Assembly: GCF_000621545.1 (NCBI RefSeq)
Contig: NZ_JHYA01000001.1
Location: forward strand, 186,001 to 250,000
Source: Anaerovibrio lipolyticus LB2005
GTDB lineage: Bacteria > Bacillota > Negativicutes > Selenomonadales > Selenomonadaceae
Direction: 5' to 3'
Length of the DNA: 64,000 nucleotides
Positions 44,405 through 53,148 of the stretch are shown here, one piece after another. The translations under genes and the position numbers were made by a program. The notes under the pieces were generated by a model. It was not told the origin of the DNA and ran no database searches. It saw only the letters and a list, made by a program, of their open reading frames with translations. Positions within the stretch are counted from its first letter, which is position 1. Each line of letters begins with the position of its first letter.

Positions 44405-44630
44405 TAATATAAAAGACCCTCACCCAAAAAGGGGCGAAGGTCTAATTCGCGGTACCACCCTAATTTATAACTCATTTACGCCATAACGCTGCTGTGCGCC
44501 CCGACTACATCTCTTCACCAGGGAGGCTCCAGAGTGAACTTCACAAGACTTTAGCTGCCCTGTTCTCAGTTATCAGGACTTCCTGTAAGCATATTTTCCA
44601 GCTACTCTCTCTTTCCTTGCCTAATGTAGA
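44405..44630 (-). promoter_or_regulatory. Phenylalanine T-box leader of pheST
   Basis: The T-box GGGTGGTACCGCG lies near 44448-44460, followed by a terminator (AGACCTTCGCCCC with GGGTGAGGGTCT, then TTTTAT). The specifier codon TTC (44536-44538) sits before ACTCTGGAGCC. AGAGAGTAGC near the 5' end fits stem I. Confidence 0.92.
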
Positions 44631-45147: not shown

Positions 45148-46518
45148 TCATTCAAAATTTTCTCTATTCATGGTGCAACGGCCCAAACTATATAAAACAG
45201 CCTCTATTGGTGATAAATTATCCGTGGTGGTTCCACAGGTCTGGGTACTGATTATATTTCCGTAAGGATCTGAAATATCCTCCTGAACAGTTATCTGATA
45301 TACCTTTCGTGTCAGCTGCTTTGCCCCAATGCTCACCCGGCATATGCGGTCACAGGAGGTTCTGATGGCTGCTGCATTTTGGGCTCTCTCATCTGTCTCC
45401 TCGCCGTCTACGGATTCATCAAACTCATAGCCTTCTATCAGCTCTGTGAGCTGTTTCATATAAACCGCATCATTATCAATATCATCGGGAATATTAACTA
45501 CGGCTGGAGCCAAATAAGCCCTTCCCTTAACTGGCTTTCCTGGCAATGAAAAAACCTTGGCTGTATCATTTACAGCGGCATGGTTATGCAAATCCACATT
45601 TTCTGCCTCCAAGGTATCCAGAAAATTACGAATAGAAGAATCCAGATACTCGGACATATTGTGGCTGAACTTCAGCGAATTTGGATTGCGCTTGCATTTT
45701 ACCTCTTCACCGGTCTGTTCATAACCAGCCTTAATAAACTGCAACAAACCATGCACAGGATCGCCGCTCATGGTATATCTGGTATGCTTCACCACATCAC
45801 CATATTCCTTGGCAAAGGTTTTATTCCCCACTGCCGGGGCTCCAAAGGTAACCACCTGAATACTCCCCGGAGGAATACCCATGCATTCCATGCGGGAACC
45901 CAACAGCACTGCAACTGCTCCCCCAAGGCTATGACCAGTAAGAAGCAGATCCTCATTATCCTTATAGATTATTTCCATAAGAGGATCCACTCCCAGGGAA
46001 CCATCCTCCTTTGGTGTAAAAAAGGCGGTCTGGGTATAGTCATTAAACCCTTTATGAACTAATGGCTGGGCCGAAGTGGTCTTCTCAGTTTTGGCATATT
46101 GCTCAAATTCCGAAGGAACAGAGCCACCAAACAGGACCTTCTGAAATCTAAGGTCCACCTCCACATCCTTCATTTTTTCAGTCCCCGGAACAGCAACGAT
46201 ATTAAGGAATTTTCCCGTAAGCTCTCCCGGTTCCTTTGACCTAAGCAAAATGAAGTTGGTAGCAGCCTTCTCATCTTCATGCTTGTAATTGACAATTTCA
46301 TAGCCAAAATCAGAAATCACATCTCTAATGACCTCGTTCAGCTGGCTCTTATAGGCCATCATATCCAGCAAAGCACAGGCATACTGAACCCCGGCTTTTT
46401 GAACAGCCTCTGATGCAGCATTGGCCTGCCCAACAGCTACAAAGAGAACCAAAGAAACTGCTATTATGATTTTACTGCCAAAGGATATCACTTTAGATAC
46501 GCATTTTGAAATCTCCAT
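45148..46518 (-). CDS. Secreted class 3 lipase-like alpha/beta hydrolase
   Basis: This protein of 456 residues has an N-terminal signal peptide (hydrophobic about residues 13-34, ending GQANA) and a Lipase_3 domain. The nucleophile elbow LLLTGHSLGGAVAVLLG (Ser at about residue 195), the following VTFGAPAVGNKTFAKEYGD with the likely acid, and a later SHNMSEYLD-type His complete a plausible triad. A C-terminal region of about 150 residues is unassigned. The ATG at 46518 overlaps the end of nspC by 26 bp, so the genes are coupled. The substrate may be a lipid, or another ester in the envelope. Confidence 0.85.
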   Translation of the reverse strand: MEISKCVSKVISFGSKIIIAVSLVLFVAVGQANAASEAVQKAGVQYACALLDMMAYKSQLNEVIRDVISDFGYEIVNYKHEDEKAATNFILLRSKEPGELTGKFLNIVAVPGTEKMKDVEVDLRFQKVLFGGSVPSEFEQYAKTEKTTSAQPLVHKGFNDYTQTAFFTPKEDGSLGVDPLMEIIYKDNEDLLLTGHSLGGAVAVLLGSRMECMGIPPGSIQVVTFGAPAVGNKTFAKEYGDVVKHTRYTMSGDPVHGLLQFIKAGYEQTGEEVKCKRNPNSLKFSHNMSEYLDSSIRNFLDTLEAENVDLHNHAAVNDTAKVFSLPGKPVKGRAYLAPAVVNIPDDIDNDAVYMKQLTELIEGYEFDESVDGEETDERAQNAAAIRTSCDRICRVSIGAKQLTRKVYQITVQEDISDPYGNIISTQTCGTTTDNLSPIEAVLYSLGRCTMNRENFE

Positions 46519-47683
46519 AGCCAAATCCCCTTACAATCTCCACCTCATCACGGTTATTTACTGCACAAATGTGAGGCAGTGGCATTCCGTTGAAGGTATT
46601 GTTCTTTACCATGCTGTAAATTGCCATATCACCAAAGAGAAGTCTGTCCCCAGGCTTTAAGGCATTGTCAAAGGAATAGGTCCCAATCGTATCTCCTGCA
46701 AGGCAAGTAGGCCCTGCCAAGGTGTATGTATGTGGCTTCTCATTAGCCTCTCCACTTCCCATAAGGGGCGGTCTGTATGGCATTTCCAAAACATCCGGCA
46801 TGTGGCAGGCAGCGGAAGTATCAAGAATGGCAATATTTGCCTTTCTTCCGTTGTCTGGTGTGGCCTCAATAATCTCCAATACTGTTGCCACCAAAAAGCC
46901 TGCATCAAGTGCCACAGCCTCTCCAGGCTCAATATACACCTTTAAGCTGTATTTTTTCTGTATTCTGTTTATACATTCCTCCAAAAGAGGAATATTATAA
47001 TCTTCTCTGGTAATGTGATGACCGCCACCAAAGTTCAGCCATTTAAGATGCTTAAAATATTTGCCAAACTTTTTTTCCACAGCCTCAAGGGTTTCTGCCA
47101 AAGGCTCCGCCCCCTGCTCACACAGGGTGTGAAAATGAAAGCCACTAATCCCATAAAGGAAATCCTCCTCTGGGGCTTCCTTCAGGGCCTGCTCCAACTC
47201 ACTTAGCTTGGTGCCCAGTCGGCTGTCACCGGAGCATGGATCGTAAATGGCATGCTCCTCTGGCTGTGTGGAATGCTCCGGATTAATCCTTAGGCCATAG
47301 GATCGGCCAGCTTGTTTAGACATTGATGCATATTTCTTCAGCTGACCGATGGAATTAAACACTATATGATCACATATTTCCAGAATCTCTGGAAAATCCT
47401 TCTCCTGATAGGCAGGAGAAAAAACGTGGTTTTCCCCGGGAAATTCCTCATGGGCCAGCTTGGCCTCATATATGCCACTGGCGGTGGTTCCCTTTAGGTA
47501 CTTGCTGATAAGGGGATAGAAATGAAACATGGAAAAGGCCTTCTGGGCCAACAAAATACTGCACCCAGTTCTATCCTGAACCCCTTTAAGTATTTCCAGA
47601 TTGTGCCTTAGCCGTGATTCCTCCACCACATAGCTGGGTGAAGGAACCTCCTGCAGCCATTTAGGCTGATAGACAAAGCTCAT
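46493..47683 (-). CDS. nspC: Carboxynorspermidine decarboxylase
   Basis: This 396-residue PLP enzyme of the alanine-racemase/group IV decarboxylase fold removes the carboxyl group from carboxynorspermidine or carboxyspermidine. The PLP lysine is in SILLAQKAFSMFHFYPLI (about residue 48), the phosphate and substrate sites include GLRINPEHST, SGFHFHTLCEQG and LNFGGGHHI, and C-terminal GPTCLAGDTIG carries the catalytic cysteine/aspartate. It shares one base with the preceding dehydrogenase gene (TAATG). It therefore works directly on that enzyme's product. Confidence 0.93.
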   Translation of the reverse strand: MSFVYQPKWLQEVPSPSYVVEESRLRHNLEILKGVQDRTGCSILLAQKAFSMFHFYPLISKYLKGTTASGIYEAKLAHEEFPGENHVFSPAYQEKDFPEILEICDHIVFNSIGQLKKYASMSKQAGRSYGLRINPEHSTQPEEHAIYDPCSGDSRLGTKLSELEQALKEAPEEDFLYGISGFHFHTLCEQGAEPLAETLEAVEKKFGKYFKHLKWLNFGGGHHITREDYNIPLLEECINRIQKKYSLKVYIEPGEAVALDAGFLVATVLEIIEATPDNGRKANIAILDTSAACHMPDVLEMPYRPPLMGSGEANEKPHTYTLAGPTCLAGDTIGTYSFDNALKPGDRLLFGDMAIYSMVKNNTFNGMPLPHICAVNNRDEVEIVRGFGYGDFKMRI

Positions 47684-48891
47684 TAGTCCACCAATGCAGG
47701 GTTATGGCTTTCCTGCCAAGGAAGGCCCCACTTGTTAAGCGCCTCCATAAATGGATCTGGATCAAATTCCTCAATGTTATATACGCCAGGCTTCTTCCAA
47801 GTGCCGTTCATTACCAGCATGGCACCAATCATGGCTGGTACACCAGTGGTATAGGAAATAGCCTGGGAACCAACCTCTTTGTAGCACTCCTGATGGTCGC
47901 ATACATTGTAAAGATAATAGGTCTTATCCTTGCCGTCCTTCTTACCCTGGAAAATACAACCGATATTGGTCTTGCCCACAGTACGAGGACCGAGGCTGGC
48001 TGGGTCTGGCAGAACAGCCTTCAGGAACTGCAATGGAACAATCTGCTTGCCCTCAAACTCAATTGGCTCAATGGAGGTCATACCAACATTTTCCAGACAC
48101 TTCAAATGACGGAGATAGCTCTCACCAAAGGTCATAAAGAAGCGGATGCGCTTAATACCAGGAATATTGATACCAAGGGACTCCAGCTCCTCATGGTGCA
48201 AAAGATACATATCCTTTGGTCCCACCTCTGGGAAATCATAAACCCGCTTAATTTCCATAGGCTCAGTTTCAACCCACTTGCCATCCTCCCAGTAGCTGCC
48301 CTTGGCAGAAACCTCACGGATGTTGATTTCAGGATTGAAATTAGTAGCAAATGGATAGCCATGGTCACCCGCATTGCAGTCCAAAATATCAATATAGTTA
48401 ATTTCATCAAATTCATGCTTTAATGCATAAGCACTGAATACACCAGTAACACCTGGGTCGAAGCCAGAGCCTAAAAGTGCAGTAATGCCAGCCTTCTCAA
48501 AGCGCTCCCGATACTCCCACTGCCACTTGTACTCAAACTTGGCAGTATCCTCTGGCTCGTAGTTGGCAGTATCCACATAGCTTACCTTGCATTCCAGACA
48601 AGCATCCATAATAGTAAGATCCTGATAAGGCAATGCCAAATTCAGTACCACATCAGGCTTAACCTCTTTCATAAGGGCCACAAGCTGCTCAACGCTATTG
48701 GCATCCACCTGGGCGGTGGTAATCTTGCATACATTACCATACTGCTTTTCCAGTACATCCTTCAGCTTGTCACACTTGCTCTTGGTTCGGCTGGCAATGC
48801 AAATTTCATTGAATACCTCGTGATTCTGAACACATTTATGAATTGCTACACTGGCTACACCGCCGCAGCCAATAACTAAAACCTTACCCAT
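47683..48891 (-). CDS. Carboxynorspermidine (carboxyspermidine) dehydrogenase
   Basis: This protein of 402 residues belongs to the saccharopine-dehydrogenase-like family. It starts MGKVLVIGCGGVASVAIHKC, an NADP-binding Rossmann fold, and contains DVVLNLALPYQDLTIMDACL and ALLGSGFDPGVTGVFSAYAL. The enzyme joins aspartate semialdehyde to diaminopropane or putrescine with NADPH; NspC then decarboxylates the product. The ATG at 48891, with CAGGAGG nine bases upstream, is the start. It lies 261 bp after speB, across a folded repeat element. Confidence 0.92.
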   Translation of the reverse strand: MGKVLVIGCGGVASVAIHKCVQNHEVFNEICIASRTKSKCDKLKDVLEKQYGNVCKITTAQVDANSVEQLVALMKEVKPDVVLNLALPYQDLTIMDACLECKVSYVDTANYEPEDTAKFEYKWQWEYRERFEKAGITALLGSGFDPGVTGVFSAYALKHEFDEINYIDILDCNAGDHGYPFATNFNPEINIREVSAKGSYWEDGKWVETEPMEIKRVYDFPEVGPKDMYLLHHEELESLGINIPGIKRIRFFMTFGESYLRHLKCLENVGMTSIEPIEFEGKQIVPLQFLKAVLPDPASLGPRTVGKTNIGCIFQGKKDGKDKTYYLYNVCDHQECYKEVGSQAISYTTGVPAMIGAMLVMNGTWKKPGVYNIEEFDPDPFMEALNKWGLPWQESHNPALVD

Positions 48892-48920
48892 TGTAAATTC
48901 CTCCTGTATATTGAACACAA

Positions 48921-48926
48921 ATTATA
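48921..48926 (-). promoter_or_regulatory. Possible -10 box of the carboxynorspermidine dehydrogenase gene
   Basis: TATAAT on the minus strand lies about 30 bases before the start codon. The matching -35 position would fall inside the right end of the inverted-repeat element and is poor (AGGAAA), so a separate promoter is only possible. Confidence 0.3.
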
Positions 48927-48933
48927 CTAATTA

Positions 48934-49138
48934 TTAGGGATAGTTTCCTATAGCGAGGGACTCAGAACTAAAAATCTTTTTTACTCTCAATTACACATCA
49001 AGAAAAATCCAAACTCGCTTCGCCCTTACAGGACTAACTTCGCGTCGCTCAAACAATGGATATTTTCTCGATGGGAAAGAATGTAAAAAACATTTTCTTA
49101 ACGTTCTTCCCCCAATGCTACAGTAAATCTATCCCTAA
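48934..49138. mobile_element. Miniature inverted-repeat element between speB and the carboxynorspermidine genes
   Basis: The 205-bp segment is bounded by TTAGGGATAG (48934-48943) and CTATCCCTAA (49129-49138), a perfect 10-bp inverted repeat that continues imperfectly to about 22 bp (CTATAGC against CTGTAGC). An inner stem pairs CATCAAGAAAAATCCA with TGGATATTTTCTCGATG around a loop that holds CGCTTCGC and TTCGCGTCGC. A third hairpin (GGGAAAGAATGT with ACGTTCTTCCCC) follows. There is no reading frame. This is the pattern of a MITE; an obvious target-site duplication was not seen. A large RNA regulatory fold is the alternative. Confidence 0.6.
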
Positions 49139-49152
49139 AATCTATACTTAAA

Positions 49153-50031
49153 CTATATTTGTTCTGGGCCTTTTATAAATGGCTCCTCCAGCTTTAACAG
49201 CATTTCCCGCAGAATTTTTAATGCGGCAGCTGTGGATGCACCACTCTGATCCAAGCCAGGGGACAGCTCCACTATATCACAGCCAACAACATTCAGGCCA
49301 CAGCCTGCTATAGCCGCCTCCATCAGCTCTTTAAAGGAAACACCGCCATATTCCGGGGTCCCAGTGCCAGGGAAAACTGATGGATCCATTACATCCAAAT
49401 CAATCGTAAAATATACCGGCTTGCCCTTCAAGGCTGCCAGCGCTTGTGGCATGGCCATCAAATCAAATTTATGAAGATGGGTGTGCTCCCTTGCCCACTG
49501 GAATTCCTCACGCAAACCGCTGCGAATTCCCAGCTGCCAGATACGGCCATCCCCCACAATATCCCAGGCCCGCCTAATAACCCCTGCATGGGTCAAATGG
49601 GTACCAAGATATTCATCCCTAAGATCAGTATGGGCATCAAAATGAAGAATATGAAGATCTGGATATCTTCTGGCCACAGCTCTGATAGCACCCAAAGATA
49701 CTAAATGCTCACCGCCAATCATAAAGGGCAGCTTGTTGGCTTCCAAAATCTCCTCCGCCCGCATTTCAATATCCTTAAGGGCCTTTTCAGCATCGCCAAA
49801 GCACAGCTCAAGATCTCCACTGTCAAAGACCTTGGCATCCTCCATGTCCAGATCCTGATACGGACTATATGTCTCCAACCCGTATGACTCACCACGCATT
49901 ATCTTGGATGCAAAGCGGGTACCAGGTCTGAAGGATGTGGTACTATCAAAAGGAGCACCGTAAAGCACAATACGTGCCTCATTAAAAGGGGCCTCGCAGC
50001 CCAAAAATGTCTCTACATTAGGACTCAACAT
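49153..50031 (-). CDS. speB: Agmatinase
   Basis: This 292-residue ureohydrolase splits agmatine into putrescine and urea. The binuclear manganese ligands are seen in FMIGGEHLVSLGAI, LHILHFDAHTDLRDEYLG and VYFTIDLDVMDPSVFPGTGTPEYGG. It overlaps speE by 14 bp. With SpeA upstream in the operon the agmatine source is clear, so agmatinase is preferred over guanidinobutyrase or arginase. Confidence 0.93.
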   Translation of the reverse strand: MLSPNVETFLGCEAPFNEARIVLYGAPFDSTTSFRPGTRFASKIMRGESYGLETYSPYQDLDMEDAKVFDSGDLELCFGDAEKALKDIEMRAEEILEANKLPFMIGGEHLVSLGAIRAVARRYPDLHILHFDAHTDLRDEYLGTHLTHAGVIRRAWDIVGDGRIWQLGIRSGLREEFQWAREHTHLHKFDLMAMPQALAALKGKPVYFTIDLDVMDPSVFPGTGTPEYGGVSFKELMEAAIAGCGLNVVGCDIVELSPGLDQSGASTAAALKILREMLLKLEEPFIKGPEQI

Positions 50032-50872
50032 CTCTCAGCAACTCCTCTACATAATTTGGCAGAGCAAAAGCACCGGCATGCAGAGCTGTATTATAATATT
50101 TCAGCTTTAAGCCAAGCTTTTTCCACCTATCCCAATTTACCCCTTTCACAGGATGATACTTCTTGGAGGCAAAGCCAAAAAGCCAATGCCCCGACGGATA
50201 TGTTGGAATATGAACCTGATACACCTTGGAAATTGGGAAAGACATGCAGATTCGCTTGTGAGCCCGCTGCATAGCCTCAGCGTCACCCTCATAAAATGGA
50301 CTTTCATGCTGATTTACCATTATGCCGTCATCATGAAGAGCCTTGTAGCAGTTGCCATAGAATTCTCTGGTAAAGAGGCCCTCCCCAGGACCAAAGGGAT
50401 CTGTGGAATCCACAATAATAATATCGTATTCGTCAATAACACGACGAATAAATTTCAAACCATCCTCAAAATAGCAGGTAACCCTTGGGTCATCCAGCTT
50501 CAAAGCTGTGGTGTGCAGATATTTTTTACTTACATCCACCACTTCCTCATCGATTTCCACCAAATCAATCTTTTCGATGAAATCGTACTTGGTAAGCTCA
50601 CGGACCGTACCACCGTCACCACCACCAATAACCAGTACCCTTTTTGGATTTGGATGAACACACATAGCTACATGGGTTATCATCTCATGATAAATGAATT
50701 CATCCTTCTCTGTCAGCATCAAATAGCCGTCCAAAACCATAATACGGCCAAATTCCTTGGAATCAAAAATATCGATACGTTGGAACTCACTTTTGCCACT
50801 GTATATCTGCTTGTCAACTTTTATTGAAAGGCTAACATTATCAGTATGTTTTTCTGTATACCATAACTCCAT
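50018..50872 (-). CDS. speE: Polyamine aminopropyltransferase (spermidine synthase)
   Basis: This protein of 284 residues moves an aminopropyl group from decarboxylated S-adenosylmethionine to putrescine. It has the N-terminal beta domain (MELWYTEKHTDNVSLSIKV; QRIDIFDSKEFGRIMVLDG), the nucleotide site VLVIGGGDGGTVREL (about residues 78-92) and the gate-keeping DSTDPFGPGEGLF. The ATG at 50872, six bases after AAAGGTG, is preferred. It lies between speA and speB. Confidence 0.95.
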   Translation of the reverse strand: MELWYTEKHTDNVSLSIKVDKQIYSGKSEFQRIDIFDSKEFGRIMVLDGYLMLTEKDEFIYHEMITHVAMCVHPNPKRVLVIGGGDGGTVRELTKYDFIEKIDLVEIDEEVVDVSKKYLHTTALKLDDPRVTCYFEDGLKFIRRVIDEYDIIIVDSTDPFGPGEGLFTREFYGNCYKALHDDGIMVNQHESPFYEGDAEAMQRAHKRICMSFPISKVYQVHIPTYPSGHWLFGFASKKYHPVKGVNWDRWKKLGLKLKYYNTALHAGAFALPNYVEELLRDVES

Positions 50873-50883
50873 CTGTATCACCT

Positions 50884-52332
50884 TTATTTCATAACATTTA
50901 AGAATCTAATATTCATATCCTCCGGGCCGGTCATGGAACAGCCCTTTTTCTTGGCATAACGAATATACTGGAGGATTTCCTCGGTAATTTTTTCCCCTGG
51001 AGCCAAAATAGGAATTCCAGGAGGATAACACATTACAAACTCGCTACAAACCCTTCCTACAGTCTGGTCTATAGGCAGGGATTCTTTTTCGCTATAAAAA
51101 GCCTCCTGAGGTCCGCAAATCACCTGTGGATTAATGTATTCCGCCTTTAGCATTTTACGTCCTGTCTGACGGTAATTTCTCCGAATCTCCGCCAAAGCGG
51201 ATACCAAACGTTCAATATCCTTCAGACGGTCTCCCACAGACACATAGGCCAACAAATTGGCAATATCACCAAATTCAGTCTGTATATCGTACTCATCACG
51301 AAGGATATCATAAACCTCTATACCGGCCAGACCAATGGAACGGGTATATACCGACAGCTTGGTGATATCAAAATCAAAAATGGAATCACCATTTATAAGC
51401 TCCTTGGAATAAGCATAATAATCACCAATGGTATTAATCTCATCCCTGGCATATTCCACCTGGTCAATAATCTTATCTATCATTTCCGTGCCACGAAGAG
51501 CCATATTTCTACGGGAAACATCCAGACTGGCCAGCAAAAGATAAGAGGCAGAGGTGGTCTGGGTCAAATTAATAATCTGATGTACATACCCCTCCGGCAC
51601 CCGATTCCCGATAAGCAGCATCGAGCTCTGAGTAAGGGAACCACCTGACTTGTGCATGGAAAGAGCCGCCATATCCGCATCGGCATGCATAGCGGCAACA
51701 GGCAGCTTATCACTGAAATACAAATGAGACCCATGGGCTTCATCTGCCAACAGCAGCATACCGTTATCATGGGCCAGCTTTGCAATTGATTTTATATCTG
51801 AGCATATACCGTAATAAGTCGGATTGTTTACAAAAACTGCCTTAGCATCAGGATTTTCCCTAATGGCCTGCTCCACATCAGCCACACTCATACCCAGAGA
51901 AATCCCCAGCATGGAATCCATCTGGGGATTTACGTATACTGGCACTGCTCCACAAAGAATCATGGCGTTAATAGCACTTCTATGTACATTACGAGGAATA
52001 ATAATCTTATCCCCTCTCTTGCAGGCAGTCATGACCATGGCCTGAACAGCGGAGGTGGTACCACCTACCATAAAAAAGGCATGGGCAGCACCAAAGGCGT
52101 CTGCAGCCAACCGCTCAGCATCCTTAATAACGGAAACAGGATGACAGAGATTATCCAGCATCTTCATGGAATTTACATCCACGGAAAGACACTGCTCTCC
52201 CAAGAATTCCGTCAGCTCCGGATTGCCCCGGCCTCGCTTATGTCCAGGCACATCAAAGGGAACCAGACGGGCCCGTTTCATCTTCTCCAAAGCCTCCAAT
52301 ATAGGGGCTCTATCCTGAGAATAGTATTCCAT
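50884..52332 (-). CDS. speA: Arginine decarboxylase (short fold-I type)
   Basis: This 482-residue PLP enzyme has the short form of the Orn/Lys/Arg decarboxylase major domain, like SpeA of Bacillus (without the N-terminal wing of E. coli inducible enzymes). The PLP lysine is in LSMHKSGGSLTQSSMLL (about residue 229), with LLADEAHGSHLYF (cofactor Asp) and FFMVGGTTSAVQAM. A co-transcribed agmatinase makes arginine the likely substrate, giving agmatine; lysine or ornithine use cannot be excluded from motifs alone. It follows speD by 15 bp. Confidence 0.9.
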   Translation of the reverse strand: MEYYSQDRAPILEALEKMKRARLVPFDVPGHKRGRGNPELTEFLGEQCLSVDVNSMKMLDNLCHPVSVIKDAERLAADAFGAAHAFFMVGGTTSAVQAMVMTACKRGDKIIIPRNVHRSAINAMILCGAVPVYVNPQMDSMLGISLGMSVADVEQAIRENPDAKAVFVNNPTYYGICSDIKSIAKLAHDNGMLLLADEAHGSHLYFSDKLPVAAMHADADMAALSMHKSGGSLTQSSMLLIGNRVPEGYVHQIINLTQTTSASYLLLASLDVSRRNMALRGTEMIDKIIDQVEYARDEINTIGDYYAYSKELINGDSIFDFDITKLSVYTRSIGLAGIEVYDILRDEYDIQTEFGDIANLLAYVSVGDRLKDIERLVSALAEIRRNYRQTGRKMLKAEYINPQVICGPQEAFYSEKESLPIDQTVGRVCSEFVMCYPPGIPILAPGEKITEEILQYIRYAKKKGCSMTGPEDMNIRFLNVMK

Positions 52333-52347
52333 TAGTTCCTTCTCTCC

Positions 52348-53148
52348 TTAGAAAACATTTATCCCGCTAAAGATTTCAATCATTTCCTTACGCAGGTTAT
52401 CATGTATTTCCAGGCGGGTTTTTGGCGGTATTTCATAAATATCCGTATTGAACAGATAATTTTTCAGGTCTAGCTCCTTGATAAGCATCTTAGTATGGAA
52501 CAAATTGGCCTGATATACATTTACATCCACCGTATCATATTTATCTATGGTTTTCTTATCGATAAAATTCTGAATGGAGGTGATATTGTGGTCCATGAAT
52601 AATTTTTTACCGGAAAGGTCACGGGTGAAGCCTCGTACGCGATAATCCATAGTAATTATATCCGAATCAAACATTCCGATAAGATAATCCAATGTTTTCA
52701 ATGGTGTAATCTCACCACAGGTGGCCACATCAATATCAACGCGGAAGGTAGCTATACTAGTTTCTGGATGATATTCCGGATAAGTATGAACCGTAACATG
52801 GCTCTTGTCCAGATGAGCCAGAATAGTTTCATTAACAGGCTTAACTACCGTATCTCCCAATGGTTTCTTTTGTCCGGAGGAAACCGCCGCCTCCTCTGCA
52901 ATCAGCAGGGTTACACTGGCACCCTGAGGATCATAATCCTGTTTGGATACACTAAGAACCTGAGCGCCTATCATTTCCGTTACCTTAAACATAATCTTGG
53001 TCAAACGCTCCGAGTTGTACTGGGAATCAATATATTTTATATAATCCTTTTGTTCTCTAGGTGTCTTAGCATAACAAATATCATAGATATTAAAGCTAAG
53101 GGATTTGGTCAGGTTGTTAAACCCGTAAATTTTCAGCTTATCTTCCAA
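52348..53148 (-). CDS. speD: S-Adenosylmethionine decarboxylase proenzyme (E. coli type)
   Basis: This 266-residue pyruvoyl enzyme follows the E. coli class (KIYGFNNLTKSLSFNIYDICYA near the start) rather than the short Bacillus/Thermotoga type. The self-cleavage site is Lys-Ser in AHLDKSHVTVHTYPEYHPE, which yields the beta and alpha chains and the pyruvoyl group; TFRVDIDVATCGEITPLKTLDYL and DYRVRGFTRD are also conserved. The start appears to be TTG at 53148 with a weak ribosome site. It is first in the polyamine operon, behind a 180-base leader with a terminator. Confidence 0.93.
   Translation of the reverse strand: MEDKLKIYGFNNLTKSLSFNIYDICYAKTPREQKDYIKYIDSQYNSERLTKIMFKVTEMIGAQVLSVSKQDYDPQGASVTLLIAEEAAVSSGQKKPLGDTVVKPVNETILAHLDKSHVTVHTYPEYHPETSIATFRVDIDVATCGEITPLKTLDYLIGMFDSDIITMDYRVRGFTRDLSGKKLFMDHNITSIQNFIDKKTIDKYDTVDVNVYQANLFHTKMLIKELDLKNYLFNTDIYEIPPKTRLEIHDNLRKEMIEIFSGINVF

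Follow-up and report, generated by a model that had tools for sequence, protein, structure and literature searches.

A six-gene polyamine operon of Anaerovibrio lipolyticus, probably of the hybrid Clostridium leptum kind, and its relatives with an altered SpeE and no SpeD

We analysed a window of 64,000 nucleotides from Anaerovibrio lipolyticus LB2005 (contig NZ_JHYA01000001.1, positions 186,001 to 250,000), whose minus strand carries six polyamine genes in the order speD-speA-speE-speB-CASDH-CANSDC between positions 53148 and 46493. An earlier note, made from the sequence alone, had described this locus as two complete spermidine routes, one through decarboxylated S-adenosylmethionine (dcAdoMet) and one through aspartate semialdehyde. 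All six genes were present in the claimed order and intact in the list of open reading frames. However, the two routes are better read as one hybrid pathway, an option absent from those listed in the earlier note, and the locus is probably a hybrid polyamine operon of the kind known from Clostridium leptum. The gene content, the gene order, the intact catalytic residues and the wide conservation of the operon were all observed directly. The finding is real but of an already published kind: the available text of PMC10413350 describes a C. leptum operon with the same six functions and makes a similar remark on two paths.

As claimed, both routes occur in the window and appear complete. Four of the six products (SpeD, SpeE, SpeB and CANSDC) passed their NCBIfam cut-offs, SpeA matched a Pfam family, and the catalytic residues were kept in both arms (Table 1). 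SpeD is a class 1a S-adenosylmethionine (AdoMet) decarboxylase, in which the serine of the motif KSHVTVHTYPE is presumably, by analogy, the pyruvoyl-forming site. A role of this protein as an ornithine or arginine decarboxylase was considered and rejected, since the published diagnostics apply to class 1b and the window SpeD belongs to class 1a and scores above the AdoMet decarboxylase cut-off. The speA product is most likely an arginine decarboxylase, its substrate being suggested by the neighbouring speB; at 482 aa it is similar in length to the ancestral-form arginine decarboxylase of Selenomonas and Bacillus described in the accessible part of PMC8503589. SpeE, encoded by a single copy in the genome, has a canonical active site, and the His, the two Asp and the Glu of its donor and acceptor sites match those of SpeD-positive genomes in the alignment. 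CASDH likely starts at the ATG at 48891, which has AGGAGG in front, rather than at the GTG at 48918. Its closest solved structures are 4rl6 (680 bits), 4ina (616 bits) and 8deb (585 bits), the last of which is the CASDH of Bacteroides fragilis, and it retains within LLHHEELESL the His-Glu-Glu triad named in the available text of the paper on that enzyme (PMC10413350). No residue rule for reading the CASDH substrate from sequence was found in the accessible published texts. The solved enzyme nearest to CANSDC is that of C. leptum (9eaf, 505 bits), and the residues Lys43, His170, Cys173, Glu237 and Glu240 of 9eaf, as given in the accessible part of PMC11866407, are retained in the alignment. Among the residues examined there was no sign of either arm being dead.

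The six genes had also been described as one continuous series. The order is as claimed, but the likely start of CASDH lies 261 bp beyond speB, and this gap holds a palindromic dispersed repeat whose matches in the genome, itself counted, are mostly partial. Congener G077, which lacks the repeat there, has about 20 bp at this place and congener G176 has 237 bp, both measured between the ends of the protein matches. Because the gap in G077 is only about 20 bp, we take the gap in the window to be an insertion: it is an inserted dispersed repeat and no evidence for two separate gene sets. A polyamine-responsive leader RNA was considered for the gap and rejected, its strong fold being better explained by the dispersed repeat that G077 lacks. 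An Rfam scan of the window gave a T-box leader before pheS as its sole match, and nothing in the polyamine operon; this leader lies downstream of the operon and is unrelated to it.

Table 1. Positions of the operon genes and of other features in the window.
Feature	Position	Strand	Length (aa)	Match
speD, class 1a AdoMet decarboxylase	52348..53148	-	266	TIGR03331, 411 bits (cut-off 256)
speA, short AAT-fold decarboxylase	50884..52332	-	482	Pfam OKR_DC_1 PF01276, 236 bits
speE, aminopropyltransferase	50018..50881	-	287	TIGR00417, 334 bits (cut-off 250)
speB, agmatinase or aminopropylagmatine ureohydrolase	49153..50031	-	292	TIGR01230, 276 bits (cut-off 174)
CASDH, carboxyspermidine or carboxyaminopropylagmatine dehydrogenase	47683..48891	-		NF043000, 425.5 bits (below cut-off 800)
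CANSDC, matching decarboxylase	46493..47683	-	396	nspC TIGR01047, 435 bits (cut-off 409)
Palindromic dispersed repeat in the speB-CASDH gap	48920..49150	-		27 matches in own genome; fold z -5.8
Class 3 lipase gene	45148..46524			
T-box leader before pheS	44427..44626			RF00230, 103.5 bits

In the hybrid pathway, SpeA would convert arginine to agmatine, which (or putrescine in its place) CASDH would join with aspartate semialdehyde, using NADPH, to a carboxy product. Its decarboxylation by CANSDC would give N1-aminopropylagmatine (or spermidine). SpeB would remove urea, leaving spermidine (or convert agmatine to putrescine). SpeD would make dcAdoMet as the donor for SpeE, and the aminopropyl group that SpeE transfers, most likely the second one, would yield spermine. 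The two routes would then be two stages of one pathway sharing agmatine and SpeB. Agmatine as the acceptor and spermine as the end product are predicted by homology to the assayed enzymes of C. leptum, in which, according to the accessible text of PMC11999265, SpeE makes spermine and CASDH and CASDC make aminopropylagmatine. The authors of that paper hold that the agmatine route is best recognised by the presence of an arginine decarboxylase, and by this gene-content rule the agmatine route is favoured for the window because both SpeA and SpeB are present. The window operon extends the published hybrid operon to the Selenomonas family and predicts that spermine is made there.

The resemblance to C. 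leptum, as far as its operon is described in the available texts of PMC10413350 and PMC11999265, covers the same six functions, an AAT-fold arginine decarboxylase and the closest solved CANSDC; the C. leptum gene order is taken from a figure legend. The two differ in that C. leptum belongs to another class and that the window has an inserted repeat before CASDH, and the specificities of the window enzymes are predicted by homology. Carboxyaminopropylagmatine chemistry is also told, in the accessible part of PMC11999265, for Synechocystis, where CASDH and CANSDC homologues act on agmatine. In PMC8503589, a source available in part, a figure legend deals with firmicute gene clusters that surround characterised arginine decarboxylases, and it names speD, speE, speB and casdh in them. 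Genomes with both routes occur in several phyla according to the available text of PMC11999265, with Sporomusa ovata among them; S. ovata resembles the window genome in having both arms in one genome and belongs by name to the same class (diderm Bacillota), but its SpeE gave spermidine and not spermine.

Several points weigh against the hybrid reading, and the spermine step is its weak point. The window SpeE carries the Asp, Gly (+2), Glu pattern reported for spermine synthases, but this pattern is unspecific, as T. maritima SpeE is a spermidine/aminopropylagmatine enzyme and yet fits it. The SpeE of S. ovata, from another Negativicutes lineage, made spermidine and no detectable spermine in the assays given in the accessible part of PMC11999265. 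The trees described below do not include the C. leptum SpeE. A lysine/ornithine decarboxylase resembling 5gjm (717 bits) is also encoded in the genome, so putrescine may form without agmatine, and the C. leptum CASDH was measured with putrescine, which the available text of PMC10413350 names as the likely substrate. These points bear on an alternative in which SpeE is a spermidine or N1-aminopropylagmatine synthase and both arms redundantly lead to the same product, perhaps depending on conditions. S. ovata would be an example, as a member of the Negativicutes with both routes and a spermidine-only SpeE, and agmatine was usable by 17 of 18 assayed bacterial spermidine synthases according to the accessible text of PMC11107197. 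However, the four other assayed SpeE proteins from genomes with both routes, including that of C. leptum, were all spermine synthases (PMC11999265, in its available part), and the sampled non-operon SpeE of Negativicutes, a comparison that leaves S. ovata SpeE outside, group apart from the operon SpeE. We therefore consider redundant parallel routes on the whole unlikely.

The suggestion that the two routes serve two different triamines found no support. Here the CASDH/CANSDC arm would lead to norspermidine and the SpeD/SpeE arm to spermidine, and the decarboxylase does score above a model named carboxynorspermidine decarboxylase (TIGR01047). However, the model also covers enzymes that form spermidine, for example that of C. 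leptum, whose 9eaf chain bears the same name, and the dehydrogenase falls far under the cut-off of the carboxynorspermidine synthase model NF043000; no search for genes of 1,3-diaminopropane formation was made. We regard this alternative as highly improbable. Just as improbable is the proposal of a replacement in progress, with one arm decaying in the window genome: all window residues examined are intact, the gene order is conserved, the dN/dS values between congeners G176 and G077, which have the same operon, are 0.016 for speE and 0.020 for CASDH, and SpeE occurs together with CANSDC in 48 of the 52 genomes of the window's family. The proposal does hold for relatives, where a replacement has happened elsewhere, because speD is lost and speE is changed there.

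The six-gene operon of the window is widely conserved. The earlier note had proposed a survey of co-occurrence in Negativicutes and had held that most bacteria use one route. We drew 220 genomes from this class and counted CANSDC only at nspC scores above 200 bits, leaving out weaker nspC matches. SpeE was found in 180 genomes, CANSDC in 109 and both in 101, and a class 1a SpeD was found in 150. Among the 180 SpeE genomes, 71 had SpeD and CANSDC, 75 had SpeD only, 30 had CANSDC only and 4 had neither. Both routes are thus commonly present, as the note had observed for the window, but SpeE + CANSDC in 101/220 genomes and SpeD + SpeE + CANSDC in 71/220 make the contrast with most bacteria weak for this class: their co-occurrence is not odd in Negativicutes, and in the Selenomonas family both routes are the rule. 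Clustering was less frequent. The speE and CANSDC genes lay at most 10 kb apart in 21 of the 75 genomes that had both and a listed SpeE place, and speE was within 10 kb of nspC in 17 of the 71 genomes with SpeD, SpeE and CANSDC; in 37 of the 54 counted as unclustered the two genes fall on separate contigs, so that contig breaks may hide clusters. Twenty further clustered loci were fetched, of which 16 had all six genes in the order of the window and four had the same order without speD. Six genes of the same pathway in an identical order in the window and in 16/20 further loci are not a matter of chance. Outside the class, a SpeE similar to that of the window at E <1e-60 was found in 106 of 345 Oscillospirales genomes, and the complete six-gene order in 16 of 40 fetched stretches (39 genomes).

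The SpeD-less relatives matter more than the window operon itself. In all 30 Negativicutes genomes with SpeE and CANSDC but without class 1a SpeD, speE lies 2.1-3.6 kb from nspC, and no live AdoMet decarboxylase was found in these 30 genomes. In 26 of them the SpeD homologue that is left carries Gly where the pyruvoyl serine would stand, in one (G080) it carries Ala there, and three (G015, G110 and G189) have no SpeD homologue. SpeE loci were obtained for 26 of them, all except G031, G063, G090 and G137. In the alignment of these 26, the His of the YHEM motif was replaced by Asp in 14 and by Asn in 12; we refer to such proteins as altered SpeE. Among the SpeE of SpeD-positive genomes (142 of 146 aligned), this His was kept in 140 and was Ser in two. 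In the alignment with 2hte it maps to Plasmodium His103, the motif being identical and the spacing to the Asp of GGGD likewise 24, and it is the residue in contact with the aminopropyl group of dcAdoMet. All 26 altered SpeE kept both aspartates and had Gly for the Glu of QHESPF. Only the His change is distinctive among these changes, because the Glu-to-Gly change also occurs in Escherichia coli SpeE and an Asn-to-Thr change in Bacillus subtilis SpeE, and such changes also occur in several His-type Oscillospirales. The window operon, with its speD, YHEM His and QHESPF Glu, is not a member of this SpeD-less type. The four SpeE genomes with neither class 1a SpeD nor CANSDC retained the SpeE His; in three of them (G002, G023 and G123) SpeD is of class 1b and has the serine. 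In the fourth (G167), a catalytic Asp of SpeE has become Glu and the SpeD homologue lacks the serine, which is probably a relic state.

The same pattern was seen outside Negativicutes. Among the 40 Oscillospirales stretches, which had been selected for a SpeE resembling that of the window, 31 were of the His type, 28 of them with speD in the stretch, and nine were of the Asp type, none with speD. Of the three His-type stretches without speD, L412 and L416 are unexplained, and L421 comes from a genome (G260) that has speD in L422. A scan of named genomes with the altered-SpeE alignment gave 80 loci from Selenomonas, Lachnospiraceae, Oscillospiraceae, Lacrimispora and others, with CASDH in 78, CANSDC in 76, speA in 75, and neither speD nor speB in any; these loci were picked by two peptide patterns, one ending in Y[DN], so the altered residue in 80/80 is biased, and the Negativicutes and Oscillospirales sets were chosen without this pattern. 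Of 33 genomes behind named loci, 24 had no SpeD-family match, including the complete genome of Lacrimispora xylanisolvens (L187, G241). As related genomes are not independent, the SpeD/SpeE associations are given without a p-value. The Lacrimispora operon continues with agmatine deiminase and N-carbamoylputrescine amidase and resembles the 4rl6 operon described in the accessible part of PMC10413350. The pneumococcal-type operon, as far as the available texts of PMC7990898, PMC7531197 and PMC10413350 describe it, comprises arginine decarboxylase, SpeE, CASDH, CASDC, agmatine deiminase and carbamoylputrescine amidase and no SpeD. It resembles the window in that SpeE adjoins CASDH and CASDC and differs from it in lacking speD, and the loci with that gene set (L187, L440 and L441) carry an altered SpeE.

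All sampled altered SpeE formed one clade nested inside the operon-SpeE clade that holds the window SpeE. The clade (members include L127, L137-L216, L420 and L432) had a support of 99/95 in a tree of 103 rows and an SH-aLRT of 92 in a tree of 111 rows; the trees kept the trait columns, and the nesting depends on the outgroups used. Repeated loss of SpeD, with SpeE changing each time, was rejected, since the trees give a single altered clade and one origin followed by transfer is simpler. Horizontal transfer of the altered SpeE is likely because the Selenomonas sequences are interspersed with those of Lachnospiraceae and other Clostridia. The dN/dS of altered SpeE was 0.010-0.026 in five pairs, one near saturation (two further pairs were saturated), and that of CASDH in the same pairs was 0.005-0.025. 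Judged by its dN/dS, altered SpeE is not decaying but under strong purifying selection. It has lost a contact to dcAdoMet and stands in genomes mostly without an apparent dcAdoMet source, and still shows strong conservation next to CASDH and CANSDC.

We tentatively suggest, as a minority possibility, that altered SpeE functions through a changed donor, without dcAdoMet. A specific form of this idea, which we hold to be rather doubtful, has AdoMet itself as the donor, whose 3-amino-3-carboxypropyl group the enzyme would pass on to agmatine or putrescine. Such an enzyme would yield exactly the carboxy-intermediate that CANSDC decarboxylates, and with AdoMet as the donor SpeD could be lost. Altered SpeE may also use another donor or have a non-catalytic role beside CASDH and CANSDC, or an unrelated, unrecognised AdoMet decarboxylase may supply it. 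The two SpeD-positive Negativicutes SpeE with Ser for His count against a changed donor, as do the nine of the 33 named genomes that have a SpeD-family match: five of these are serine-less (four Selenomonas and one titled Phascolarctobacterium), G240 has the serine but an in-frame stop, and three (G230, G243 and G248) have a live-type SpeD, each with a second SpeE at most 3 kb away. Against it also stands that in the pneumococcal strain TIGR4 deletion of speE is described, in the accessible part of the published account, as giving no measured metabolite change in rich medium. No description of an AdoMet-using altered SpeE was found in the open-access papers searched. If true, such an enzyme would explain a 'spermidine synthase' without AdoMet decarboxylase in Selenomonas and in many Lachnospiraceae and Oscillospiraceae, and it may account for the like observation in pneumococcus. 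The question is now testable: the clade of altered SpeE is defined, it apparently arose once within an operon of the dcAdoMet kind, the residue lost is a donor contact, and the genomes concerned are listed. In the three genomes with a live-type SpeD (L217-L219 and L367-L369), a class 1b SpeD adjoins the second, longer SpeE, whose frames span 504-528 aa.

Two annotation traps became apparent. The cut-off for 'spermidine synthase' lets altered SpeE through, and that for 'adenosylmethionine decarboxylase' admits a SpeD homologue without the serine. The A. lipolyticus genome has such a second SpeD homologue outside the window, next to lgt (G000:C8:75616-75936, equal to L089 4488-4973). The pyruvoyl serine is replaced by Gly in this protein, whose C-terminal tail is basic and conserved, and its score of 77.1 bits is just over the NCBIfam AdoMet decarboxylase cut-off of 75.65. 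A SpeD-family match besides the class 1a gene was present in most Negativicutes tested, even in genomes without SpeE. In the window, CANSDC overlaps at its end with a class 3 lipase gene, and the same neighbour was found in G176, G077 and G141.

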